From NCBI GenBank assembly GCA_025267735.1, contig CM046309.1:29334702-29398701 (forward strand): a stretch of 64,000 nt of DNA, in the 5' to 3' direction. Positions 2,223 to 47,200 of this stretch are shown here, piece after piece. This stretch comes from Mactra quadrangularis (lineage: Eukaryota; Mollusca; Bivalvia; Venerida; Mactridae). The number at the start of each line of letters is the position of its first letter. Within the stretch, counting starts at the first letter, position 1. The notes under the pieces are model-generated. The model made no database searches and was not told the DNA's origin. It was given only the letters and a program-made list of their open reading frames with translations. The translations under genes were made by a program, and so were the position numbers.

Positions 2223-2719
2223 AACATAATAACTGATAAAGAAAAATACTCCATTATTTAATCCTAATGGACAACCAGCTACTTGAGAAAAAATCTTCAG
2301 AATTCTTTGGTACTGAGATAAGTATTGTAAAAAAAGCTGCTAAAATCATGAAGTTTCGGTATTTAAGGATTCTTTTCACCACATAGCAAAAATTTATCAC
2401 AAAGAAAATAACTCACACCTGCTATCAAGGACCCTTAATTGGTGTTATCTCCTTTGTTAAAGAGTTCTAACACAGCTGTCTAGCAAAGATTTTCAATTTG
2501 CACAGCCGAAGGTCAGCTAAATTTGGAATACTCGAGTCTGTCTGCTTTATGACGTCTTTCCGTTTTTAGCAAATCTTAACTTCAGCTCGATATTTGTCAG
2601 AGCTTGAAAGACTCACGTGACATTCGCTAAGCAATCATGGCGATCAGTGGAAAGCAAATTGCTGCAACTACATGTAAATAAACGAAAATGGTTGAAAATG
2701 CCTCCTAAACTATTTTTTT

Positions 2720-3085
2720 ATTAGAATAGGAAGTATCTATAAGGTTAATCGTAATGCAACTATTGCATGTTATTAGAATAGGAAGTATCCACAAGGTTAA
2801 TAGTAATGCAACTATTGCATGTTATTGGAATATGAAGTATCCACAAGGTTAATAGTAATGCAACTATTGCATGTTATTGGAATAGGAAGTATCCACAAGG
2901 TTAATCGTAATGCAACTATTGCATATAATTGGAATAGGAAGTATCCACAAGGTTAATAGTAATGCAACTATTGCATGTTATTAGAATAGGAAGTACCCAC
3001 AAGGTTAATAGTAATGCAACTATTGCATGTTATTGGAATAGGAAGTACCCTCAAGGTTAATAGTAATGCAACTCTTGCATGTGGC
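2720..3085. repeat. 52-bp minisatellite, about 7 copies
   Basis: The period was counted as 52 bp from successive GGTTAATMG starts at 2743 and 2795. Every copy holds the inverted repeat ATGCAA-CTA-TTGCAT and a GGAAGTAYCCACAAGG block. The last copy runs into sequence also found at 19750-19870 in unit B. Confidence 0.9.
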
Positions 3086-3224
3086 TCTCGCTAAAAATTG
3101 AAAATATATAGTCGTAGTCAAGCAAAAACTACAACGCATAATGTATGGCAGCAGCCATCTTGGATTTCTCCTCTGTGTGTTCGACGGGTTGTCCACGTGT
3201 TGAGTTGTCCCGGACCCAAATAAA

Positions 3225-5490: not shown

Positions 5491-6693
5491 GTAAGTATTT
5501 TTTTAGTATTTCAAGATTCTTTTGTCAATGTTACTTTTTCTCTTTATTATACAGGCATTTCTTGACTGCCATTCTTTATTCCGTTCTATCATTAAAAAAA
5601 AAGCGTATTACGCATGTAACGCAACAAATAATAAAACTTAAGTTCAACAATAAATACCACCTTGTGCGATTTTTGGTAGTTATTGGACAATTTTTAAGTT
5701 CCAAACGCTTAATTTTCGAAAAATCATTGAATTAAGACCGTTCCTTTGATTTTGAAACTTTACCTTAACCTGGTTCAAACCCATTGTATTGCCACTGTCT
5801 GCTCCAAGGTGGAAACCACATTATAGGTTTTTTCGATACTTGAATGCAGTGTCATTGTTATAACAAAAATAGAAACCAGAAATTGTTTCCTACTAAATGT
5901 TTTAACTGTTCCTGTTTCTGACGTGTTCCAACATTACCTTTACTCTATCATCGCCGACATCTATCGGTCATTCTGTCCAGAGTAATCGTTTAAAAAAATA
6001 ATAATAATTTTGTTGAGCTCCATCATTTGTTTTCATTGTGTAAAGCAGACAATTTTCTTGTCTGGATTACCTGCCCCTTACCACTATCGTTATCGGGTCA
6101 GGCAAACCGTAATCATGACGGCCTCCTCAGTTATTATTCAGGTATTACGTTTTCTTAAATTTGCATTATCATTTGCTGACGAAAGTTACTTTAGTAGGAG
6201 TTCGTCACTACTTAGGTCATTCGATTTCGATCTTTCTGATTACACGTATTTTTAGCGAACGATGAACAAAAACATCTCCAAGTTATCATAATTCGGACGT
6301 GGATTAGTCTCGTTAGAATTTCGAATACTTTATTTAGCATAAATGTAACCGAACAACTAAAAAAAGGTATCCATTGCAATACTTGTACAACAATCCTTTG
6401 ATTTAAACCTGTGTGGTTAGAAATGTTCATTTGAAAACATAATTATCTAATAACTAATTCATTACATAGGGCGCGGCCATTATCACGCTTTGCTCATGTA
6501 CTTTTACCTGCCAAAGTACGACTGGGAACCAGACAAACAATCTTCCTCATAATGAGACAAAATACTGACAAGTGATACATTGTACGGAGATACAACTTAT
6601 AAAATTTATTTTACTTTTTTCAGGCACACGTTATTGGTTGAAGCTGCATCCGACTCGGACTCAGTAGTAGAGACACGAGTGTTTGAACGGATA

Positions 6694-8361
6694 ATGGCTT
6701 ACGTCCGTTTGTTGTTAGGCGTTCTTTTTATCGCCTGCTTCAGTCAAGTGTATGGCGAGACGAAAGTATTTACACAAGACGAGTCTTTACATTTCAAGAG
6801 TTTACTCGACGCTTTTGATGAAGACGACAACCGTCAAGAGAAGCCACATGGTTCCTACTTGAACAACGAAGATGTCAAGCAGGATATGTTTCTCAGCCCG
6901 GACCGTAGAATAATTGCCCTGCCATGGTGGTCCAATTTTGTTTTAAATCTTATTTATTCCTTTAATCAACAGCAAACAAACTCCCAATTTGGCGTCCTGT
7001 ATTTTGATTACATTGATGAAGAACTAGCTGAGAACCCCGACTTAAACCCAGATTTCTTCCCTAACATCAACGGCGAACCAATGCTGGATAACTCAAATGC
7101 TCTGACACCATCAACGTTGAGTAGTTATGGCAATTATATCGCAGCAAGACCAGAAAGGTCCCTAACTGAAATAATTCATTCTGAAGAGAAGCTTTTACGA
7201 CAAATGGGTAAACTCTGGAATGCTTACCTAAATAGTTATAATCGTTCTCCAAACGTTATAATCCTTTATTCTTGGTTCATACCCTGTAACGATTGCACTT
7301 CTATGATTCTCAATTATTTCAATCAGCAACCTTATGCTGATGTTCCTGTTCGAGTTGTAGCCTATACGCGGGACTACAGTCCCCATCTACCGTCTTTGAA
7401 TCCAACAAATAACAACAACAACATACAACGATTAAGATCAGCTGACATAACAACATGGCAGGAATTTTGTCGAAGACCCGAAGAGGACATCGCTTCAGAA
7501 CAAGTATCCAGTTCAACCACCGAAACTTGCGATTTGGATGAAACATTCCAAGGCTGCATGATTACCTGTCTCGAAGAAGATTTCTGCTGCTCATGTAAGA
7601 GTGATAAAAAGAAGACCATGGTAACGGCAGTGGTTAATGATTTGACCAAGACCTGTGCCGCTTCGGATATGATCAAATGCGCTAGTACTTGGTTTAACAA
7701 GGAATTTAGTCGTCCTCGAAGTGGTGCCAGTAGTTGTTTTGGAGTCGATACAGCCCGTAGCAAGGTTCAGTCTTGCAGCAAAAAATGTCTTGGTCGCCCA
7801 CTGTCAGAACCTTTGAATCCCGAATTTCCATCATCTTATCCGAAACTTTTGACAAAATTGTCTGATATTGAACGTCAACCAAACGTTGATCTCTCCAGCT
7901 ACTGTGAAGATGTCAGAACAGAGGGTTTCCTATGTAATGTCTATAGTTCTGATAGCTTTACTGCCGGCAATACTATGTGTAGAAAAGGATGGACATGTGG
8001 TTTCCATAATTATACATCATATAGTTGGTGCTACGTTGACTACAGCAACAAGTGGGACTACTGCTGTACTGGTACCTGTGACTACCACCATCGACACTAT
8101 TTGTGGTGCAAGAGTGGAGCCAAATGGCAATACTGCGGAGATGCTGGTCATGTAACAGCCAAAGGTAGAACCTGTTTGCCACAGTACCCATGTGGTATGC
8201 ATCAAGAAACTGGCAAAGCAAGCAAATATTGGTGTTACGTTGACACCAACAAGAATTGGGACTGGTGCTGTCAGCCTGGAGACCATTGTTCTTACAAGGG
8301 AAAGAACTACAGATGGTGTTGGACCGGCTATAAGGAAAAAACATCTTCTATCAAATGTTAG
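6694..8361 (+). CDS. Secreted deaminase-fold protein with C-terminal Cys/Trp repeats (copy A)
   Basis: A 555-residue single-exon coding region. The frame opens at 6580, but a splice acceptor at 6621-6623 lies inside that extension and the methionine at 6694 begins a clean signal peptide (residues 1-21, core LLLGVLFIACFS, likely cleavage after VYG), so 6694 is chosen. Residues ~75-230 look like a zinc-dependent deaminase: helix and strand ending GVLYFDYI (100-107), zinc/proton motif H162-S-E164 in EIIHSEEKLLRQ, strand NVIILYSW (187-194), P197-C-N-D-C201, then strand VRVVAYTRDY (219-228). The SW..PCxxC context and the strand after it resemble AID/APOBEC. Residues 279-365 are a Cys-rich segment. 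Residues 429-545 hold two repeats of form CGxH...WCYVD....WDxCC...YxWC. It resembles no family I can name at full length. A secreted deaminase, perhaps immune, is inferred; catalysis is untested. The coding part lacks introns, so a retrogene origin is possible. Confidence 0.85.
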   Translation: MAYVRLLLGVLFIACFSQVYGETKVFTQDESLHFKSLLDAFDEDDNRQEKPHGSYLNNEDVKQDMFLSPDRRIIALPWWSNFVLNLIYSFNQQQTNSQFGVLYFDYIDEELAENPDLNPDFFPNINGEPMLDNSNALTPSTLSSYGNYIAARPERSLTEIIHSEEKLLRQMGKLWNAYLNSYNRSPNVIILYSWFIPCNDCTSMILNYFNQQPYADVPVRVVAYTRDYSPHLPSLNPTNNNNNIQRLRSADITTWQEFCRRPEEDIASEQVSSSTTETCDLDETFQGCMITCLEEDFCCSCKSDKKKTMVTAVVNDLTKTCAASDMIKCASTWFNKEFSRPRSGASSCFGVDTARSKVQSCSKKCLGRPLSEPLNPEFPSSYPKLLTKLSDIERQPNVDLSSYCEDVRTEGFLCNVYSSDSFTAGNTMCRKGWTCGFHNYTSYSWCYVDYSNKWDYCCTGTCDYHHRHYLWCKSGAKWQYCGDAGHVTAKGRTCLPQYPCGMHQETGKASKYWCYVDTNKNWDWCCQPGDHCSYKGKNYRWCWTGYKEKTSSIKC

Positions 8362-13201: not shown

Positions 13202-14029
13202 GTTGATTTTTAAAAAAAAATATTGTTGTATGTTTAAAGGGGAACAACTCCTACAACTTCATAAAATAACCATTCACATACGATACAGGTTAAAGCCTTC
13301 CAAGTTCCGACAGTTAACATCTAAGTTCTATATACTAGTTGTTATCTATGCATTTACCCGTACCATAAAATATAACAAATATGTATATTTATATTTCAGA
13401 TGTAACAGATCAGAACACGGTAGATGAAGCCTACAAGACCGTACAGTCTTTTGTTAAGAAGGATGGTTTAACATTGCTCATTAATAACGCAGTACATGCT
13501 AACCTTGTAGAACTACCTGAAGTCACCAGGAAAATGATGAAAATAAACTATGATGTTAATACTATTGAACCTTTAATGATGGTTAAGGTATATTTAAATT
13601 AGTTGTATAATTAATATATAATATATATTCCGGCCAACTTACATAGAATTTTGGAAAAAAAGCTAAAAAAGGCAAACATGTGGCCCAGCACCAGTCTTCA
13701 CCCCAAACTTTCATTAACACAAGGCATTTTAAAAGTCGTGCAAAATGAAATCTTTCACCAGACTGAATGAATGTTTACTGGACCTATAACAATTCTAAGT
13801 GATTTGTTAAAACATGTTGTCCCTTTAAATGTACATTCATGGCATGTTAACAGTCAGAACACTTTTTCTTAGTGAATGGCCAAAGATGGTATGTTTAATG
13901 TAACATAGTAAGGTTGGTGTAAAGTTACTGTGAGAACAGCCTGTCTTGTAACAACTAATCCTATCCTGAGTTATTCAACAGCAACAACCACTTCAAACAC
14001 TTCTCTCACGGCTCCGATTTAAATATAGA

Positions 14030-16150: not shown

Positions 16151-16784
16151 CTGGACAAATTGTATAACAAAAATACTATATATGCAGCAATTTTAAATAT
16201 CAGGAAAGTAACATGCTCGAAATGAGTAAAACATGATGCAGCGACCGTCTAATTATTTAAGTTGTGACAGGTTAATAGCACATAATAACTGAAAAAGAAA
16301 AACACCCCATTATTTAATCCTAATAGACAACCAGCTACTTGAGTAAAAATCTTCAGAATTCTTTGGTACTGAGATAAGTATTGTGGAAAAAAGCTGCTAA
16401 AATCATGAAATTTCGGTATTTAAGGATTCTTTTCAACATACAGCCAAAATTGAACACAAAGAAAATAACTCACACCTGCTAATAAAGACCCTTAATTGGT
16501 GTTATCTCCTTTGTTAAAAGTTCTAACAGCTGCCTAGTAAAGTTTTTCAATTTGCACAGCCGAATGCCTGCTAAATTTTGAATACTCTAGTCTGCCCGCT
16601 ATATGACGACTTTCCGTTTTTAGCAAATCTTCTGAACATTCAGCTCGATAATTGGCAGAGCTTGTAAGACTCACGTGATATTCGCTAAACAATCATGGCG
16701 ATTAGTGGAAAGCAAATTGCTGCAACTACATGTTAATAAATGAAAATGGTTGAAAATGCCTCCAAAACTAGTTTTTTCATTAGA

Positions 16785-17399
16785 ATAGTACGTATAAGGT
16801 TAATAGTAAATCAACTCTTGCATGTTATTAGAATAGGGAGTACCCACAAGGGTAATAGGAATGCAACATTTGCGTGTTATTAGAACAGGAAGTACCCACA
16901 AGGTTAATAGTAATGCAACAATTGCGTGTTATTAGAACAGGAAGTATCCACAATGTTAAAAGTAATGCAACTATTGCATGTTATAAGAAAAAGGAGTACC
17001 TCCTAGGTTAATAGTAATGCAACTATAGCATGGTATTAGAATAGGAAGTACCCACAAGATTTCAAGTAATGCAGCTATTGCATGTTATTAATTTAGGGAG
17101 TACCCACATAGCAAATAGTAATGCAACTATTGCATGTTATTAAAATAGGGAGTACCAACATAGCAAATAGTAATGCAACCATTGCATGTTATTAAAATAG
17201 GGAGTACCCACATAGCAAATAGTAACGCAACTTTTGCGTTTTATTAGAACAAGAAGTTTACACAAGGTTAATAGTAATGCAACTTTTGAATGTTATTAGA
17301 ACAAGAAGTATAATCAAGGTTAATAGTAATGCAACTATTAAATGTTATTAGAATAGGAAGTACCCACAATATTAAAAGTAATGCAACTATTGCATGTTA
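16785..17399. repeat. 52-bp minisatellite, unit B, about 12 copies, interrupted
   Basis: Same period and ATGCAA-CTA-TTGCAT core as 2720-3085, with more diverged copies (CACATAGCAAATAG variants). The array is split by later insertions and resumes at 19280-19436 and 19750-19800. Confidence 0.88.
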
Positions 17400-17403
17400 T
17401 TAA

Positions 17404-19278
17404 TGTAACGTGTATCCGAGCGGTCAACTATATATAAATGTATTTTCCTCGAGCTACTTAGCTTAATGATTGGTAAAATGAAATTAAAAAAAGTATATGT
17501 ACAAGGCATGAACTATAAGACAAATTTAACAACATCAACTATTCAATATATCTATATATACAATGATATACATGAGCATGAAGAGCATCACACAGCATAA
17601 GATTAATATAAAGGTCAAAAGTAATCCACGTTAAACAAAATCACTAAATATATACATAAGACAACGAAGCAAGAGTGATGCTAAATAGACAATATTAGAC
17701 AAGATTATCAACTATTGTTGACAAATAAACTATGCATATACAACAAACGGCAAAACTAAGTATGATGCAACATATAGTAACGACATAAGACAATCAAATA
17801 AAGACAAATGCATGGACAATTATATACATTGCAAAATGACATAGATAACTATGATAGACGAGAGCTTCTCCGAAGCTCGTCCTTGTTATCAAATGAACGG
17901 ACGATCAGAGTTACCTGTCTCCGTCGCCGAACTATATATGACAAAACATGATGGCAAGGAAAGTACAAGGGATGGGACAAACAGGAATGATTCAAATATG
18001 CTACAGAAGTTGAGCTATCAGCTCGTCTTAAAATTATCTATGGACGGCCGAACAACATTCGCAGCCGTCATCTAACTAATAAACTACAAAGAGGTGGGAC
18101 CTGATATACAAATGACGGGATTACAATACTGATGAGCTATAATATATACATAAGCTCATGCATATATCAAGTTGACGAGCGACAAGAGTGGATCATCTCT
18201 TTCGCTGAGTTACTAACAATATTTTCGATAACCAGTATAAAACATACACATAAAGTGGGTTTGAGATGTATAAAATACGCCAAGCTACCAAATGCTTCTC
18301 ACCAAAATAATCAATGCTATATCCGATAGCTAATCTCTATTACTGGCTCTTCGATACATAATCACTAAAGCACAAACTAAAATCCACAGTGTCTCCAGCC
18401 TTTCAACATAATACATTATTCAACTAGTATTAAACTCCGCTGGCAACCACTAAAACTCTACAATAGTTTTAGGTATATATCTAACACGGCTCCAGGCCCT
18501 AGCCAGCAACTATGTTTCGGCTCTCAGCCTTATCAATATTCACAAACAACAACTATGAAACAATACTGCGAGCCGCGCGTTTCTCCGGCTGTACACCACT
18601 CTGGGGAAGCGAGGCTTCGGCAGAGTTGCGGTAAACAACAATGAGGGTTGGCTTCGGTCCTCCCAGGTATTTCCCATAGTGTTGTTTCACCAACAATCAT
18701 ATTATTCAACTAGTACAACATTAAGCTGGCAACCACAGAAACTCTACAATAGTTTCATTTATAGACACATATCTAACACAAGAGATCCAAGCCAGCAACT
18801 TTATTACGGCTCTCAGCCTCAAAAATATTCACAAACAACAACCATAGAACACTACTGCGAGCCGGGCGTTTCTCCAGTTGAGTACCACTCTGGGGAAGCG
18901 AGGCTTCGGCAGAGTTGCGGTAAACAACAACGAGGACAATTGACTTCGGGTATCCCAGGTTATTCTTATGGCGTTGTCTCTCCAACCATCACATACGCGT
19001 ACCCACTATAACAACTAACAATTTCAGTAAAACATATGACCGGAAGTAGATAAATATTTATTAATTAATTCTGGGGCTCAGAGTGTCGGACGTGCGAGTC
19101 TGCTGCCAACGGCAGACTGATTTAAATTGACTAATTTTCTCCTTTTATACTCTTCGTAACAACTATATTCAATGAGCGTCTTAAAACAAAGACGTACTAA
19201 TGCATCTTTTTACCCAGATGAACTGACCTCACATTAGACAATGTTAAAACCCGTATCTCCGTACCAATAATCGTCACA
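17404..19278. mobile_element. 1.9-kb insertion, probable solo LTR or non-autonomous LTR element
   Basis: Inserted inside the minisatellite: begins TGTAACGTGTATCC, ends ATCGTCACA, flanked on both sides by TTAA (17400-17403 and 19279-19282). TG...CA ends with a 4-bp target duplication fit an LTR. A TTAA-targeting DNA element is the alternative, because the termini TGTAACG/TGTGACG are weakly inverted. Internally, ~270 bp is tandemly duplicated (18411-18680 and 18690-18960), including GGGGAAGCGAGGCTTCGGCA. No reverse transcriptase or integrase frame is seen; the 110-codon frame at 18679-19011 overlaps the repeats and has no recognised family. Confidence 0.6.
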
Positions 19279-24469: not shown

Positions 24470-26137
24470 ATGGCTTACGTCCGTTTGTTGTTAGGCGTTC
24501 TTTTCATCTCCTGCTTCAGTCAAGTGTATGGCGAGACGAAAGTATTTACACAAGACGAGTCTTTACATTTCAAGAGTTTACTCGACGCTTTTGGTGAAGA
24601 CGACAACCGCCAAGAGAAGCAACATGGTTCTTACTTGAACAACGAAGATGCCAAGCATGATAGGTTACTCAGCCCAGACCTTAAAATAATTGCCCAGCCA
24701 TGGTGGTCCAATTTTGTTTTAAATCTTATCTATTCCTTTAATCAACAGCAAACAAACTCCCAATTTGGCGTCCTGTATTTTGATTACATTGATGAAGAAC
24801 TAGCTCAGAACCCCGACTTAAACCCAAATTACTTCCCTAACATCAACGGCGAACCAATACTGGATACCTCAAATGCTCTGACACCATCAACGTCGAGTAG
24901 TTATGGCAATTATATCGCAGCAAGACCAGAAAGGACCCTAACTGAAATAATTCATTCTGAAGATAATCTTTTACGACAAATGGGTAAACTCTGGGATGCT
25001 TACCTAAATAGTTATAATCGTTCTCCAAACGTTATAATCCTTTATTCTTGGTTCATACCCTGTAACGATTGCACTTCTTTGATTCTCAATTATTTCAATC
25101 AGCAACCTTATGCTGATGTTCCTGTTCGAGTTGTAGCCTATACGCGGGACTACAGTCCCCATCTACCGTCTTTGAATCCAACAAATAACAACAACAACAT
25201 ACAACGATTAAGATCAGCTAACATAACAACATGGCAGGAATTTTGTCGAAGACCCGAAGAGGACATCGCTTTAGAACAAGTATCAAGTTCAACCACCGAA
25301 ACTTGCGATTTGGATGAAACATTCCAAGGCTGCATGATTACCTGTCTCGAAGAAGATTTCTGCTGCTCATGTAAGAGTGATAAAAAGAAGACCATGGTAA
25401 CGGCAGTGGTTAATGATTTGACCAAGACCTGTGCCGCTTCGGATATGATCAAATGCGCTAGTACTTGGTTTGATAAGGAATTTAGTCATCCTCGAAGTGG
25501 TGCCAGTACTTGTTTTGGAGTCGATACAGCCCGTAGCAAGGTTCAGTCTTGCAGCAAAAAATGTCTTGGTCGCCCACTGTCAGAACCTTTGAATCCCGAA
25601 TTTCCATCATCTTATCCGAAACTTTTGACAAAATTGTCTGATATTGAACGTCAACCAAACGTTGATCTCTCCAGCTACTGTAAAGATGTCAGAACAGAGG
25701 GTTTCCTATGTAATGTATATAGTTCTGATAGCTATACTGCCGGCAATACTTTGTGTAGAAGCGGATGGACATGTGGTTTCCATAATCATACATCATATAG
25801 TTGGTGCTACGTTGACTACAGCAACAAGTGGGACTACTGCTGTACTGGTACCTGTGGCTACCACAATGAACACTATTTGTGGTGCAAGAGTGGAGCCAAA
25901 TGGCAATACTGCGGAGATGCTGGCCATGTAACAGCCAAAGGTAAAACCTGTTTGCCACAGTACCCATGTGGCCTGCATCAAGAAAATGGCAAATCGAACA
26001 AATATTGGTGTTACTATGACACCAACAAGAATTGGGACTGGTGCTGTCAGCCTGGAGACCATTGTTCTAACAAGGGACATAGCTACAAATGGTGTTGGGC
26101 CGGCTATAAGGAAAAAACATCTTATGTCGTATGTTAG
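24470..26137 (+). CDS. Secreted deaminase-fold protein with C-terminal Cys/Trp repeats (copy B)
   Basis: 555 residues, no indel against copy A, ~48 substitutions (about 91% identity). It starts at the same signal-peptide methionine; the frame is open from 24353, but the acceptor at 24397-24399 makes that part intronic. Everything diagnostic is conserved: signal peptide, H162-S-E164, SWFIPCNDC (193-201), VRVVAYTRDY, the Cys-rich segment, and all cysteines of the two C-terminal repeats. Changes are uneven: ~21 in residues 1-204, ~6 in 205-421, ~21 in 422-555, many in the second repeat (HQETGKAS versus HQENGKSN, WCYVD versus WCYYD). The intact frame after clear divergence argues that both copies are under constraint. 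Secretion and a deaminase-like fold are read from sequence; enzyme activity, substrate and an immune role are inference. Confidence 0.85.
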   Translation: MAYVRLLLGVLFISCFSQVYGETKVFTQDESLHFKSLLDAFGEDDNRQEKQHGSYLNNEDAKHDRLLSPDLKIIAQPWWSNFVLNLIYSFNQQQTNSQFGVLYFDYIDEELAQNPDLNPNYFPNINGEPILDTSNALTPSTSSSYGNYIAARPERTLTEIIHSEDNLLRQMGKLWDAYLNSYNRSPNVIILYSWFIPCNDCTSLILNYFNQQPYADVPVRVVAYTRDYSPHLPSLNPTNNNNNIQRLRSANITTWQEFCRRPEEDIALEQVSSSTTETCDLDETFQGCMITCLEEDFCCSCKSDKKKTMVTAVVNDLTKTCAASDMIKCASTWFDKEFSHPRSGASTCFGVDTARSKVQSCSKKCLGRPLSEPLNPEFPSSYPKLLTKLSDIERQPNVDLSSYCKDVRTEGFLCNVYSSDSYTAGNTLCRSGWTCGFHNHTSYSWCYVDYSNKWDYCCTGTCGYHNEHYLWCKSGAKWQYCGDAGHVTAKGKTCLPQYPCGLHQENGKSNKYWCYYDTNKNWDWCCQPGDHCSNKGHSYKWCWAGYKEKTSYVVC

Positions 26138-29225: not shown

Positions 29226-32200
29226 ATGATTTCACCAAAATCTGCTTTCATTACTGGAGCAAACAGAGGCATAGGATTGGAGTTTGTGAAACAATTGATA
29301 AAACTTTCAAATTCACCAAAGTATGTGTTTGCTGGGTGCAGGAATCCTGATTCAGCTAAGGTATAGTTTTATAACACATAATTTATTACTGCCTTGAACA
29401 TATGTGTCAAGCATTTTATCATGTATTAGATAAAGATTCATATGATCTTTCGTGTTAAATGTAGGCTATAGTTCTTTCAGTTATGGTTATTTGATGATGT
29501 TAAAGGTACTAGTTCACGGATTTGTTTAAGATTTTTTCTATATTTTCAAAATACCATTCAGTGTCTGTAATTGTGTCAAAAAATAACTCTTAATTTTTAA
29601 GACAAACTGACCTATTGATTGCAAAAAATATACAATAATTGTCACAAAAATGCACTAAAATTGTCTATACTGTGACATATATCGGGTGAATTCAAGCCCG
29701 TAGGAACAGGGGGGGCTAGGGGGGTTATTCCCCCCATATTTTCAGCATACTGATTGAGGATCTTTAATTAATCTGTCACACCAGAGACATAGAAAAAGCA
29801 CAGATGTATCGAAAAAATACCATGGGCGGATCTAGGGGGGTCAGGGGTGTCCGGACCCCCCTAGAATTTGGAAAATGTACATGTCCATTAGTGTATTTCT
29901 TGCTTGTAAGTCATTTTTAAGTTGTATGAAACAATTTGTCTCGGTGCTTAACAAAGATTTAATGGTTATGTAGTTTTTATTATCAATGTGTTGCATTTTT
30001 TCTGCAAAATGTGTGTAATGTGGTTGTGGTTCGAGGTTCGGACCCCCTAGAAAAGTTCGGACCCCCCCCCCCCTAGAAAAGTTTAGACCCCCTAGAAAAA
30101 ATCCTGGATCTGCCCCTGAATACACACACTTTTTATGGAGCAAGATGTGCAAATGCAGTGTAAAATTAAACTTAATCATGTACATTTCTTCCATACTTAT
30201 TGAATAAAGCCCCTGTTCATACCGTTAGCCTCCCAATCTGAAAATGCTTCCTACGTGCCTGGGATTTTTACTACTTGAAACACCATCATTTGTAGTTGTA
30301 TGAGTATGTCAATTTGCACTAACATTGTCATTATCAAAACACTAATTTCCTGCTTCAAAAAATGTTTCCACATATCTAAATAGTTTCACTACATATGTAT
30401 TCATTTATTAAATTTTCTCTGAATCAGAGTTCATTCAATTATAATAATATAATGGTTTTGTTTTTTATGATAATTAAGCATATGTTAGATCATGTCTTAA
30501 TGAACACAATATATTTGAAACTATTAAGACATAAAAATGGAAAAAAAATCATTAGTGATCTTGCATAAGTGAAGATTGCTTGATTTTTGTGGACAGCTAC
30601 ATGTAGCCTCATAAGATAAATACACTGTATTAAAATTTTTAAAATTCTTTCTACATAATAAAAGGACATGTATAAAGGCACATTTTGTAAATATTTGACA
30701 CAAACCTAAAAAATTTGGTCAATTGTAAGATAGTGAATATGTAAAGCAATAGGAAATACAGAATATTTTTTGTCAGTAGTATTTGAATCGGTATCGACAT
30801 ATTTGTCTATTAATTTCAAATATGCCTGTATTTAATTATGAGGTACATGATATTATTTAGAGATGCATAAAGCATTAAGTTAGTAAGAAATGTGTTTTTA
30901 TCGGACCACTGGTGAAATTGTACAAGTCAGTCAGCTTAAATCAATCCAAATTTAAAACCTTAGAAGTGAAATGCTGATAAACAAATAATAAAAGCTATCT
31001 AAAGTAAAAATCTATCATTATTTTAAATAAGATCACTTTTTTCTGTGTATGAATTTAAGATTAACATAATCTGAAAATTGATTACCCCCCTTTCATATGA
31101 AATGTAGAATCTAAAATAGTGATTACCCCCCTTTCATATGAAATGTAGAATCTAAAATAGTGATTACACCCCTTTCATATGAAAAGTAGAATCTAAAATA
31201 GTGATTACCCCCCTTTCATATGAAATGTAGAATAAAAAAAAGTGATCACCTCCCTTTCATATAACATGTAGATCAACTATCAATAATACATATTTTTAGA
31301 AGTTTTTCTGTGGCTAGAAAAATACTGTTTTCAGGATCTCCAGAATTTGTCATCAGTCAATAAAACAGTGAAGATTGTCAAGTTAGGTAAGTTTATTTTA
31401 CAATTATACTTTTACACAAATTCATAAACTTAATGGTCACTTAATTCTGAGCAATTTTCTGACTCAATTTTTGAAGTAAAACAAAACAATTTTTATTAGT
31501 TTAAATATATTTAACAGTCAAAATGGAGCAATTGTTTATATTCAACAGAATGATAAAATCTGATTTAACTGCATCAAGTGCCTGAAAATTGAATTCACAG
31601 AATAGTAATAATCAGTCTTTCAAAATAGTACCAATCAGGAGCATTCCATCAGCTTGAAGCACCTTTTAACTACAAATCCAGGAGTTGTGGGTTGGATTCC
31701 ATGAGGGGATTATGAGCCCTGTCATGAACTATTTTCTATGGCCATTCTTCCTTTTACCTCTATATCAAGTAGGACAGTTACTAAGTGATCTGCCAGCAAA
31801 GGTGTGTACTTAGTACATGTAGCACTAGTTGTTAGGCTGGCAAAGGTGTGTACTTAGTACATGTAGCACTAGTTGTAAGGCTGGCAAAGGTGTGTGCTTA
31901 GTACATGTAGCACTAGCTGTAAGACTGGCAAAGGTGTGTACTTAGTACATGTAGCACTAGTTGTAAGGCTGGCAAAGGTATATGCTTTGTTCTTGTAGCA
32001 CTAGCTGTAAGACTGGCAAAGGTGTGTACTTAGTACATGTAGCACTAGTTGTAAGACTGGCAAAGGTGTGTACTTAGTACATGTAGCACTAGTTGTAAGG
32101 CTGGCAAAGGTGTGTACTTAGTACATGTAGCACTAGTTGTAAGGCTGGCAAAGGTGTGTGCTTAGTACATGTAGCACTAGTTGTAAGGCTGGCAAAGGTG

Positions 32201-35200
32201 TGTACTTAGTACATGTAGCACTAGTTGTAAGGCTGGCAAAGGTGTGTACTTAGTACATGTAGCACTAGTTGTAAGGCTGGCAAAGGTGTGTGCTTAGTAC
32301 ATGTAGCACTAGTTGTAAGGCTGGCAAAGGTGTGTGCTTAGTACATGTAGCACTAGTTGTAAGGCTGGCAAAGGTATATGCTTAGTACATGTAGCACTAG
32401 TTGTAAGGCTGGCAAAGGTGTGTACTTAGTACATGTAGCACTAGTTGTAAGGCTGGCAAAGGTGTGTACTTAGTACATGTAGCACTAGTTGTAAGACTGG
32501 CAAAGGTGTGTACTTAGTACATGTAGCACTAGTTGTAAGACTGGCAAAGGTGTGTACTTAGTACATGTAGCACTAGTTGTAAGGCTGGCAAAGGTGTGTA
32601 CTTAGTACATGTAGCACTAGTTGTAAGGCTGGCAAAGGTATATGCTTAGTACATGTAGCACTAGTTGTAAGGCTGGCAAAGGTGTGTACTAAGTACATGT
32701 AGCACTAGTTGTAAGGCTGGCAAAGGTGTGTACTTAGTACATGTAGCACTAGTTGTAAGACTGGCAAAGGTGTGTACTTAGTACATGTAGCACTAGTTGT
32801 AAGGCTGGCAAAGGTGTGTACTTAGTACATGTAGCACTAGTTGTAAGGCTGGCAAAGGTATATGCTTTGTACTTGTAGCACTAGCTGTAAGACTGGCAAA
32901 GGTGTGTGCTTAATACTTGTAACTTTAGTTGTTACAGTTGTAAGCAAGCTTAGGTCTAGAATTAAGGCAGTAAATAATAAAACTTAACAATATTGTATTA
33001 TGTTCAAAGGGGAACAACTCCTTCATCTTAATGAAATACCAGCACTCAATATAATCAACTCTAATCTATTTTCTATCTAAGTTCTATATAGTAGTTGTTA
33101 TCTATGCATTTACCCATACCATAAAATGTAACAAATACAAAACAATGTATGTATATTTATATTTCAGATGTAACAGATCAGAACACAGTAGATGAAGCCT
33201 ACAAGACCGTACAATCTTTTGTTAAGAAGGATGGTTTAACATTGCTCATTAATAATGCAGTTCATGCTAACCTTGTAGAACTACCTGAAGTCACCAGGGA
33301 AATGATGAAAATTAACTATGATGTTAATACTATTGGACCTTTAATGATGGTCAAGGTAGATTTAAATTAGTTGTATAATAATTATATAATATATATTCCG
33401 GCCAACTTACATAGCATTTTGAAAAAGAGCTAAAAAAGGCCAACCTGTGACCACGCACCAGTCTTCACCCCAAACTTTCATTAGCACATGGCATTTTAAA
33501 AGTCGTGCAAAATGAAATCTTTCACCAGACTGAAAGAATGTTTACTGGACCTATAAGACTTCTAAGTGATTTGTTAAAACATGTTGTCCCTTTAAATGTA
33601 CATTCATGGTATGTTAAGACAGAACACTTTTTCTTAGTGAATGGCCAAAAATGGTATGTTTAATGTAACATAGTAAGGTTGGTGTAAAGTTACTTTAAAT
33701 ACAGCCTGCCTTATAACAACTAATCCTATCAACTGAGTTATTCAACAGCAACAACCACTTCAAACACTGCTTTCCGAGTTGTTTTAAATATGAATGACCA
33801 CCAATAATGGTGCAGATGTATCCTTCATATTTGATGTACATAAGAATCTAATGAAAAAAACTTGTTGCGTAAAAGTTGTTCTCTTCTTCTGGCATTGTCA
33901 ATGTGTGGGTTAAATTCAGTAAGGAGAAAAATTAGGGTACATATTTCCGATATTTCCACCTTATCTTACAATCTTTATTATTTATGCCAACTATGATGAA
34001 GACTGTAAGAAAGAGTTGTTATACTTAAAAATTTGTAACCTAAAATATTCAAAAACCATTTCATATACTCATCTCATGACTGTTTAAATATGAATGACCT
34101 TTAATAATGGTACAGCTGTTCCAATTATTCTTGATATTGGATGGTCACAAGTACTAATCTAATGAAAAACCTTTTTTTCAGACATTTTTACCATTATTAC
34201 AAAAAGCAGCCAATCAACAACCAGATGTAGAAATGTCCTGTAGTAAATCAGCTATTATAAATATATCTTCAGATTCTGGATCTATATCTGATAACTATGA
34301 TGGCATCTATCATGGTGGACTTTATCCATATAAAGCTTCCAAAGTAAGAACATTGTGATTGCTAAAAAGAATTTGCATTTTATAGTCATGCTTATGCATG
34401 TTCAATGACATAACTGCTATTACCACTGGTTATCAGATTACTGGTATTTGTCTATTTATCTCCCAGGGAAGTCTTTCACTGCGCTTAGTGAAACCGATAT
34501 ATTGGCCCACAGGAATATTACATGTATTCATTTACAAATAGGTGAAGTAAAGCAATCAAAAGTTAATTTCTTGCTCAAGGAAATTAGTAGTACCTCTGGT
34601 GGGGTTTGAACTTGTAAAATGATCGTAAATGTGCGTCCTTCCATTGGACAACATTCTTGTTCCCAGAGTCTAGTAGGATTCTCAATACTAGCATAGTATT
34701 GAGAATCCTACTAGACTCTGGGAACAAGAATGTTGGACAATTGTATTAAAATAATGTTCCATTATAAAAACCAGAAACTAATTGGCAACACCTGCTTATT
34801 AAAGATGTGAACAAATCATGAATCATATTAACAAAGTCTATAGTAAGACCATGGTCTGAACTGAGATTCAAACCCACAACCTCTCGAGTCGAAAGGGGAC
34901 GTTCTTACATGTCACCATGCCATGCCTGAAGACAAGGAATTACAAGTGCAGTATTATATAATGTACCTCTGCTACATATTTATTATCCAAAGCAGTCAAT
35001 GTGAACAAGCTATCATGCATTCTTTGCCTCAGGTTTTATGTAACAAGCTAAATCTTTGTCTATTACAGGCAGCATTGAACATGATCACATCATGTCTAAG
35101 TTTAGATCTAAAGAAAGATGGTATATTATGTTCAGCAATTCATCCTGGTTGGGTCATCACCGAGTCAGGAGGGCCTAATGCTGAAATCACCACGGAAACC

Positions 35201-35299
35201 AGTCTACAGTATTGTATGGAGGCATTAGAGTTAATGAAAGGAGATAAATGGTCAGGAATATTATACCATTGTATTAACAAGAAAAAAATGGGCTGGTAA
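29226..35299 (+). CDS. Short-chain dehydrogenase/reductase, C-factor/sniffer-like (SDR-B)
   Basis: Five exons: 29226-29360, 31335-31386, 33168-33355, 34182-34343 and 35069-35299 (stop TAA included), joining in phase to 255 residues, the usual length of a classical SDR. TGANRGIG (10-17) is the NAD(P)-binding loop; GCRNP and LDVTD (62-66) follow as in cofactor-site strands; L-I-N-N-A-V (89-94) replaces the common NNAG; NISSDSGS (152-159) contains the catalytic Ser; Y175-K-A-S-K179 is the catalytic Tyr/Lys; HPGWVITESGGPNA lies in exon 5, the form typical of C-factor and sniffer-like carbonyl reductases. The protein should be a soluble cytosolic carbonyl reductase; its substrate cannot be told. 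Introns hold two minisatellites (31080-31255, 31795-32925) and nested repeats. It is the intact partner of truncated SDR-A. Confidence 0.9.
29821..30118. mobile_element. hAT-like MITE (unit B, SDR-B intron 1)
   Basis: Ends GGGCGGATCTAGGGGGGTC and GGATCTGCCCCTG; opposite orientation to 12918-13201 and at a different intron position. It sits within a larger unit-B-only stretch (about 29690-30265) that also has GGGGGGCTAGGGGGGTTATT near 29705. The 117-codon minus-strand frame over it is repeat-derived. Confidence 0.65.
31080..31255. repeat. 41-bp minisatellite, about 4 copies, SDR-B intron 1
   Basis: The unit GATTACCCCCCTTTCATATG then AAATGTAGAATCTAAAATAG repeats with a 41-bp period. Unit A has a single equivalent (GATTACCTCCCTTCATATG at about 12119-12137). 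The unit contains the palindrome TTTCATATGAAA. Confidence 0.85.
31795..32925. repeat. 44-bp minisatellite, about 25 copies, SDR-B intron 2
   Basis: The unit GGCTGGCAAAGGTGTGTACT, then TAGTACATGTAGCACTAG, then TTGTAA has a 44-bp period (CAAAGG at 31841 and 31885). Copies are nearly identical with recurrent variants (TGTGTGCTTAG, TATATGCTTAG or TTTG, GGCTGG versus GACTGG). Unit A has one ancestral copy (GACAAAGGTATATGCTTATT at about 12598). Confidence 0.95.
34400..34650 (-). mobile_element. tRNA-derived SINE, family 3 (SDR-B intron 4)
   Basis: Allelic to 15905-16150; minus-strand B-box region GTTCAAACCCCACCAGAGG near 34592-34611, followed directly by the perfect hairpin at 34651. Confidence 0.55.
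34651..34733. repeat. Perfect 40-bp inverted repeat with 3-base loop
   Basis: The left arm 34651-34690 (ACATTCTTGTTCCCAGAGTC...) and right arm 34694-34733 are exact reverse complements, separated by GCA. It lies in SDR-B intron 4 next to a SINE end and near the place corresponding to the duplication junction in unit A. Confidence 0.92.
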
Positions 35300-44200: not shown

Positions 44201-47200
44201 AGTAATGCAAAAATTATAGCATTTAAAAGTTATGTAATATGCCCTGCTTTATGGGGAAATTTCAACAGTTTTTAGTTATATTTGAGTGGTCAGTAGTTCT
44301 ACTCACTGTATCTAGGCAGGTCTAAATCTCTAGACCCTAGCAGTCTCAAGTACAAAGCAAATAATCTCACTACTGGCCAACAGAAGACAAGCCACAGGAA
44401 TACAGAAATTGCTAAATACAAAACAATTATCAATGTAATACTACACAACTTGCATTTATACTTACTGATAACATATTAGTTTGGAAGACATGCCAGTTAG
44501 GTTCTACTACTTCAAACATCATGTAGTACTCAAAGTTTTGTACAAAGTTTAACATTCTTTGTCTTAAAGCAAATGCTGCAGAATACCATCTACAAGACTT
44601 TGGTCCAAATATCTTAGCTGACTTGTTACCAACCCATACACTATAGAAAATAATTCAAAGATTAAATATAAATATTACAACTACACACGGAAAATAATCT
44701 GTAACAATTAGTTTAGTAAACTTATTACTCAACCCACTTCATTTAAATGTATCAACTGAAAAAAGTAAATGAAAGCATTCTTTTAAACAATGTTCTATCC
44801 AGCTCAATTCTGATAAGAAATTAGTTGTAAAAACAAATACACAGATTTGCTTGCATTGCTGTTCAAAAGTAAAATTTAGTAGTAAAATGCAAAATTAACA
44901 TATTGAGCAACAGTAGACTCATCTGATGCATCAACTCATTCCCACAGCAGTAAACAAATCATACACATTGATAGATTATTAGAATTCACAAATCTTCAGT
45001 AAAGTTCATCCACACAACAATTAATTATATTAACTATATTAGTTGACATAATAAAAATATCATAAAAAATAAAACTCTTTTACTGACCTACATAACTGTC
45101 TTTCTACATGTTTTGTATAAAACAAATGTCTAAACAACATTTGATAGCGTGTGAGAGCCTGAAGAGAGGGAAACATAAAACAAAATGAATATCACATATA
45201 AACAATCTTAGACCAATTAAGAAAATTCAACACAGACAATTACAAGGGTGACATAAACTGAATGGGTTATGTACATGTCTGCCTTACATCTGAGTATTAG
45301 GTTTGAATCTAATCTGAAAATAGGTGCTGAGAAATTGAGCCGACAAGTTAAAGCTGAAGATCAACTGACAAATGGACCATCTGATCAACCTACAAGCTGA
45401 CTCCTATACGCCCCTCTCCCCAAAGTTTTTTACAGGAGTATAATAATAGTTTTCATTGATATTTTATAGAACAAATAATAAATTCAAGAAATTACAATAA
45501 TGAAGACGGGTATACCTTTCTGTTTAGTACTAAAGATACTGGCCACTTGACGACGTAATCAAATGAGAAAGATTCTAATCCAGAAAGATGAAGATCTGTT
45601 GGATCACTGCGATATTTCTTATAATCTGAAATACATAAATACACAAACATAGATATTAAGCTCTAGCTATATTGGTCTGATACAAATATGTTACATAAAA
45701 ACACATCAGTGAATGCTAAAAATCAATCAAATTTCTTCATTCTGATATTTCTCAATTTAATGACTTCAGTAGCTTTCACATACATAGGAAAAGTGCCCTA
45801 ACTAACCCTTGTCACACATACAACATATTGGTCTAAGTATGTGAAACATATGAAAAAGTAGCTAAATAATTTGCTTCAATATGTTGGTGAAGATCATGGA
45901 AAAATGAATTCATTAACTATTACTCAACCCACAAGTAGTAATAACTATAATTCAACATTTACATTACAATCATGGACATTACAAACAAGTGACATAATAT
46001 CTCAATAAGTTTGACAGTGTCTGACAAAAATTCCTCACCAGCAATTATAGCTATATGACAGACATGTTTTTAAACAAAACAATTAATAATTCTAAGGATC
46101 TCTAGCAGTAATATAATAAGATATTATACAAAGAATATACAAATATATTACCATTTTCCATACTTGTATCAATTGAGAGAATTTTAAACATTTGTGTGAT
46201 CAGATCAAACTGTAGTAAGTCAACTCTGAAATATAAATACGTAATATATTACAATAATTATAAGCTTAAAATTACCTGAATCTAGTATACTTGAGTCTAA
46301 TGCAGTTTTAATAAATAATATGTAATATTTTGTGGATTGGAAATCAGCATCATAAAACATGTAGTAATTGTTAAAGTTGTTAAAGCAGATAGTCCTAAAC
46401 AAATAAATATGAAAATTTTCTGCATGAACATGGGGCTTGACTATTACCTACATAAGTCACCCAGTAGACATATATGAGATTGTATGAATACTCTCAGTCA
46501 GCAAGAAGCTTTCAGTCAGACTTAAAAACATACTATCACAACTCAACAGTGAGTTTTAAAGTATGTTGCCTAGTAGGAAGACCAACAATAAATATTACTT
46601 GCCAAACCAAATGTTTATATGCCCAATGAAAAGTGCTTTTTGAATAAAATTTGAGTGTTATTAATATTCTGGATGCCAGATTGGACAATCTGTAGCAAAA
46701 ATGTGTAGCCAAACCCTCAGTAAAATCTTCATGGACAGTCGAACAACTATTAATTTGGAGTCCTGTATTAAATATAATGTGAAATATAAAATACTCACTT
46801 CAGATCATCTTTGTAAGGATCTACATTAGCTGTACTAGTTCTCAATGCAAGTCCTAATAGAGATTCTAATCTTGTAGGCATTATATTCTCTACATCTTGT
46901 TTCATTTCTTCCTCTGTCATATCCATAAACTGTACAATAAAATCTCCTTTATCCAGTAAGAAATAGTGCTTCATAGATCTAATATAATGAATAAAATTTG
47001 TACTATGAATAGATACATATTACAATACATAATACATGAACAGAGCTCAACTTTTCTGGGAGCTTGATAACAGGTAAAAGCCATATTAATGTCCATTGAC
47101 ATGCATGGCATTATAAGTGAATATTAAAACATTTATGAAGATTTTTTACATACAAAAGATGCATTTTGAGTTAAAATTCAGGCTAGTGATAAGGAACTTC

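Follow-up and report, generated by a model that had tools for sequence, protein, structure and literature searches.

The gene at positions 6694-8361 of the stretch of DNA analysed here (64,000 nucleotides, in the following the window) probably encodes a zinc-dependent deaminase that is secreted and falls into the AID/APOBEC-like, or more precisely the SNAD-type, branch, and it belongs to a family that occurs in the same genome in two forms. The short form consists of the deaminase only, while the long form, to which this gene belongs, continues into a Cys-rich region and two eight-cysteine repeats. Secreted AID/APOBEC-like proteins are already known, and it is this tail that constitutes the new element. 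The homology of the HxE...PCxxC region to the deaminase superfamily appears very likely from sequence comparison, catalysis by the protein is plausible, and its features suggest an extracellular editing enzyme.

Gene, tandem duplicate and probable secretion

The gene has a close tandem paralogue in the window, and four features are relevant to its organization:

6694-8361, + strand: long-form gene, 555 aa; uninterrupted open reading frame from an ATG, with a paralogue that shows no indels
24470-26137, + strand: tandem paralogue, 555 aa, 91% identical, inside a tandem segmental duplication
6614-6623, + strand: probable 3' splice site (pyrimidine tract and AG) at the end of a 5'-UTR intron, judged from sequence
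6694-6756, + strand: signal-peptide-like N-terminus, residues 1-21, judged by hydropathy

The first-pass annotation had described a frame with deaminase-like motifs at 6694-8361, and both the 555-residue ATG frame and the motifs are present there. The coding sequence is a single exon. A splice-acceptor-like site lies 70 nt upstream of its ATG, and the nine copies inspected each have a comparable tract with AG some 60-75 nt before their start codon, which together suggest an intron in the 5'-UTR. When the two window paralogues are compared, their 1668 coding nucleotides contain no indel, whereas the 3' flank has five within 747 nt.

At the N-terminus, the protein begins with the hydrophobic segment MAYVRLLLGVLFIACFSQVYG, which reaches a 10-aa Kyte-Doolittle maximum of 3.06, and a hydrophobic, signal-like start is shared by all nine family rows that extend this far (9/9). 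Made from hydropathy and the -3/-1 rule, this call agrees with the signal peptide proposed in the first-pass annotation, and the protein is likely to be secreted.

The surroundings of the two genes include minisatellites with 44-bp and 52-bp periods (31664-33063, 2614-3173 and 16669-17488), which lie in or beside the duplicated segments. Exons resembling short-chain dehydrogenases are found on the + strand at 33125-33367, 34865-35296 and 13369-13599 (Pfam adh_short, below cut-off), the first and the last being copies within the duplicated segments. Together with an exon of gamma-tubulin complex component 2 at 46798-46995 on the - strand (PDB 6tf9_RP1, E 2.2e-25), they fit an ordinary animal chromosome.

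Predicted zinc site and probable deaminase homology

The deaminase assignment concerns the N-terminal half of the protein, with the following features:

6922-7479, + strand: deaminase-like domain, residues ~77-262, outer limits estimated; Pfam deaminase matches within ~146-224 and a low-confidence model
7177-7185, + strand: H162-S-E164, with the predicted zinc ligand H162 and the predicted proton shuttle E164
7282-7296, + strand: P197-C-N-D-C201, predicted zinc ligands of the motif

The two motifs, HSE and PCNDC, are separated by 32 residues, all as previously described. When residues 22-268 were shuffled 200,000 times, the strict form of the arrangement, HxE-x20-45-PCxxC, arose in just 7 cases. 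With the entire Cys-rich protein shuffled equally often, in contrast, the more permissive [HC]xE version turned up in 1716 cases, so the motif by itself is only moderately surprising.

Stronger evidence than the motif itself is its conservation among paralogues. We searched the assembly containing the window (979 Mb, 447 contigs) with the long protein and one short protein as queries and found about 14 family places, 12 of which are represented by 13 rows in our alignment, A3 (a copy at 28.3 Mb on contig C17 and a fragment on C4 were omitted). Identity to the window protein is 28-92% among the rows. All 12 rows that cover H162, E164, C198 and C201 (12 of 12) carry the same residues there, even at 28-39% identity, and P197 is retained in 11 of 12; at each of these columns, the remaining row is a piece of the copy L011 that does not extend to it. 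Within A3, 34 of the 190 well-filled columns are invariant, so that, if columns are assumed to be exchangeable, all four named columns would be invariant by chance with a probability of about 9e-4. Conservation of these four residues among homologs had been set beforehand as a check on the deaminase reading, and its outcome is in favor. Thus, [HC]xE and PCxxC occur in the order seen in the superfamily and are conserved.

The profile searches point in the same direction. In a Pfam scan of the full-length sequences, only two deaminase families were matched per protein, at 1.9e-4 and 9.3e-4, while the N-terminal half yielded six in each window paralogue, with E values up to 0.04. When the core alone (7099-7404) was scanned, all 11 families listed were deaminases, led by XOO_2897 (1.5e-5), SNAD1 (1.7e-4), APOBEC4 (3.6e-4), SNAD4 (1.1e-3) and NAD1 (1.2e-3), and ending with APOBEC1 (0.19). 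As unrelated Pfam families turn up at E values of 0.1-0.2, the weakest of these matches are close to noise, and all deaminase matches of the window protein lie below the curated cut-offs, including the best one, XOO_2897, with 25.4 bits against 27. Across the 13 family rows, NAD1, SNAD4 and dCMP_cyt_deam_1 match seven each, APOBEC4 and APOBEC_N six, and XOO_2897 five; the short copies L018, L019 and L009 gave no Pfam match at E<=1. Searches of the PDB by sequence or family profile returned no deaminase, and NCBIfam and PHROGs contained nothing relevant to the protein. The reversed sequence and three shuffles, scanned against Pfam as a control, matched no family, and masking H162, E164, C198 and C201 abolished every deaminase match. 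The match therefore rests on the zinc site together with the sequence around it; a single protein by itself would leave some doubt.

These observations also bear on whether the motif might have arisen by chance in an unrelated, Cys-rich secreted protein. The frequency of the loose form in shuffles and the loss of the match upon masking would accord with such an origin, but the invariance of the site in the most divergent paralogues, the agreement of many deaminase models on one place and the clean reversed and shuffled controls make it extremely improbable.

Structure prediction contributes less. AlphaFold models of the full-length protein from its single sequence and of the domain from a two-row alignment reached a pLDDT of just 36.1 and 36.4, respectively. 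In the latter, low-confidence model, a helix (77-93), a strand (99-104) and a short helix (109-113) are followed by a helix holding the HxE (157-182), a strand (187-193), a helix starting at the CxxC (199-210), a strand (219-224) and a final helix (237-249). The order of elements at this pLDDT of 36, a1-b1-a2-b3-a3-b4-a4 without b2 and b5, is presumably that of a deaminase minus strands 2 and 5, but it carries little weight. Foldseek returned 406 matches to the model at E<=10, none of them at E<=0.001, and there was no deaminase among the best 50 of the 406. Of the earlier deaminase-like reading, the superfamily homology and the conservation of the four zinc-site residues are hence upheld, whereas, at a pLDDT of 36, neither the two models nor the Foldseek search is informative about the fold.

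The same region has a second conceivable interpretation, namely that of a thioredoxin-like redox protein. The active-site segment of thioredoxins runs strand-CxxC-helix-strand, and the stretch VIILYSWFIPCNDC...VRVVAY resembles it, with this order of strand, CxxC and helix appearing locally in the low-confidence models; a secreted, Cys-rich protein with a tryptophan ahead of a CxxC at the start of a helix would also suit such a role. However, no thioredoxin-like Pfam family was matched up to E 10 (the HMMER filters lose most matches above 0.1), as opposed to many deaminase families, and the invariant upstream HxE would be left unexplained. We regard this interpretation as very unlikely and retain that of a deaminase.

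The Cys-rich tail and the known secreted deaminases

Beyond the deaminase-like domain, three features make up the tail of the long form:

7528-7788, + strand: middle Cys-rich region, residues 279-365, with 11 cysteines, all 11 identical in five long copies; no Pfam match
7978-8136, + strand: first C-terminal 8-Cys/Trp repeat, residues 429-481, which aligns with the second; cysteines identical in five long copies
8173-8358, + strand: second C-terminal 8-Cys/Trp repeat, residues 494-555, which aligns with the first; cysteines identical where copies reach

The two repeats align with a score of 123, compared with 73 for the best of 1000 shuffles, and the elements CGxH, WCYVD and WDxCC occur twice at the C-terminal end, as the first-pass annotation had it. 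Beyond residue 23, no cysteine differs among the long rows as far as these extend. A protein search of the genome with the tail (E<=0.1) led to five places, which are the five long copies only; for large families, the counts of the search tool are lower bounds. The tail has no match in Pfam or the PDB, and no family with the full architecture of deaminase and tail was found in the libraries searched, in line with the earlier statement that no such named family was known. Both C-terminal repeats have a WCY...W[DE]xC spacing reminiscent of Kringle and fibronectin type II domains, but the repeats match neither of these, nor anything else in Pfam, up to E 10, and nothing in the PDB. That they bind a ligand, as initially proposed, is a guess. 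In the literature compared, we found no report of the tail architecture; the founding SNAD paper, reportedly Krishnan et al. 2018, lies outside this comparison, and relatives of the family may already be described in it.

SNADs are the secreted branch of the AID/APOBEC-like deaminases, with function and activity described as unknown in the excerpts of PMC11004436 used here. In the same excerpts, SNAD1 is assigned to poikilothermic vertebrates, SNAD2 and SNAD3 to ray-finned fish and SNAD4 to sponges only, while protochordates have SNADs as well according to parts of PMC8201067. The earlier remark that secreted AID/APOBEC-like proteins exist in some animals thus corresponds to a published group. 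Invertebrate members of the wider AID/APOBEC-like group are likewise not new, since proteins of Crassostrea and Lingula (PMC5956068, in part) and three APOBEC3-like proteins of Aplysia (PMC9334734, in part) have been placed there.

With the SNADs, the window protein shares the signal-like N-terminus, the HxE-PCxxC region and the occurrence in a multigene family, and it matches the models of both SNAD1 and SNAD4; yet these scores stay below cut-off (22.0 bits against 25 for SNAD1, at best 20.0 against 27 for SNAD4), and the hosts that the PMC11004436 excerpts give for SNAD1-4 are poikilothermic vertebrates, ray-finned fish and sponges. Given this anatomy and the missed cut-offs, we call the protein SNAD-like rather than a SNAD. 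Its zinc-motif region also matches APOBEC4, NAD1 and classical AID/APOBEC (PF18775, PF18778 and PF08210), again below cut-off, but the classical members lack such a tail and are intracellular (PMC11004436, in part).

Among single profiles, in turn, the window protein scores best, though below cut-off, with the XOO_2897-like deaminases (PF14440), a family named for a bacterial protein, and this might be taken to mean that animals acquired a polymorphic-toxin deaminase from bacteria independently of the animal AID/APOBEC branch. This possibility concerns ancestry and is compatible with a deaminase mechanism, so that it overlaps with the other readings. It is opposed by the larger number of family rows that match NAD1 and SNAD4, and by the lack of relatives among plasmids and prokaryote genome contigs in searches sensitive to close relatives only; viral contigs held none either. 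Moreover, no sharp line can be drawn between the two origins, as a bacterial-toxin origin has been proposed for the SNADs themselves, along with a delivery to infected cells or extracellular parasites (PMC8201067, in part). We therefore consider a separate bacterial acquisition improbable and continue with the SNAD-like assignment.

Under this assignment, H162, C198 and C201 would bind zinc and E164 would act as the proton shuttle, such that single-stranded nucleic acid could be attacked by a zinc-bound hydroxide at cytosine or, with lower likelihood, at adenine. The protein would be exported and carry disulphide bonds, its repeats might tether it to some surface or ligand and so place the deaminase close to nucleic acid that is foreign or extracellular, and its role would plausibly lie in innate defence. 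More speculatively, and with rather less than even chances, we envisage an invertebrate system of targeted extracellular nucleic-acid mutators, i.e. a duplicating family of secreted AID/APOBEC-like proteins, in one branch of which a disulphide-rich adhesion tail makes microbes, viruses or extracellular nucleic acid the target of cytosine deamination. As far as the excerpts of PMC11004436, PMC8201067 and PMC13402138 extend, secreted AID/APOBEC-like deaminases have no known substrate or activity, and the intact zinc sites together with short and tailed forms in one genome offer a direct way to ask about extracellular editing and its targeting. With the distribution given in these excerpts, the family might also extend the secreted branch beyond vertebrates, protochordates and sponges.

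Copies and selection in the genome

Five of the copies are long, namely the window pair, two on contig C14 and one on C17 at 38.97 Mb, while short or partial copies are found on C5 (six), C11, C17 at 28.3 Mb and C4. As assembled, six copies are open from start to stop, i.e. the window pair and four of the short copies on C5, which end after 268-274 residues, past the deaminase domain; the others are interrupted, split or without an end. In a tree of 11 rows, long and short copies are separated with full support, although the tree contains flagged long branches and was rooted at its midpoint.

The dN/dS ratios (Nei-Gojobori) of the window protein are low against the pieces on C14 (0.35, 0.29 and 0.23), against the copy at 38.97 Mb on C17 (0.19, with a dS of 1.9 near saturation) and against two short copies (0.34 and 0.21, with saturated dS values of 1.5 and 2.7). 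Because the C14 and C17 copies are interrupted as assembled, their low ratios speak of past constraint. Among young duplicates, the ratio is 1.22 for the window pair (11 synonymous and 53 nonsynonymous differences) and 0.42-0.94 for six pairs of short C5 copies, most of them at least 0.68, which gives the impression of relaxed or diversifying evolution. The deaminase region of the window pair shows 1 synonymous against 15 nonsynonymous differences, but this excess is not significant (Fisher p 0.21; overall p 0.64), and we make no claim of positive selection.

The ratio of the window pair would also suit a pseudoenzyme or zinc-structural protein, that is, a secreted binder of deaminase descent that kept its zinc site without editing. 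Such a protein would fit the disulphide-rich secreted setting, and the excerpts of PMC11004436 and PMC8201067 report no activity for SNADs. The putative proton shuttle E164, however, is retained as strictly as the zinc ligands, in 12 of 12 rows, and we judge the loss of catalysis to be unlikely compared with an active SNAD-type deaminase.

Several copies show peculiarities of their own. The long-form locus at 38.97 Mb on C17 (L017, 2708-4270, - strand), the third of its kind, is about 52% identical, and its last repeat contains a stop codon in frame. Two short-form coding regions are split just before the PCxxC by an intron or insertion, L011 (3317-7710) by about 3.6 kb and the one comprising L013 (3318-3909) and L020 (3987-4190) by about 8 kb, unlike the open copies, which are unsplit at this site. 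Finally, a C5 copy (L010, 2443-3159, - strand) carries TCxxC in place of PCxxC and has no in-frame signal part; the first 27 residues are matched at a distinct site some 0.8 kb upstream (C5:9583455-9583535).
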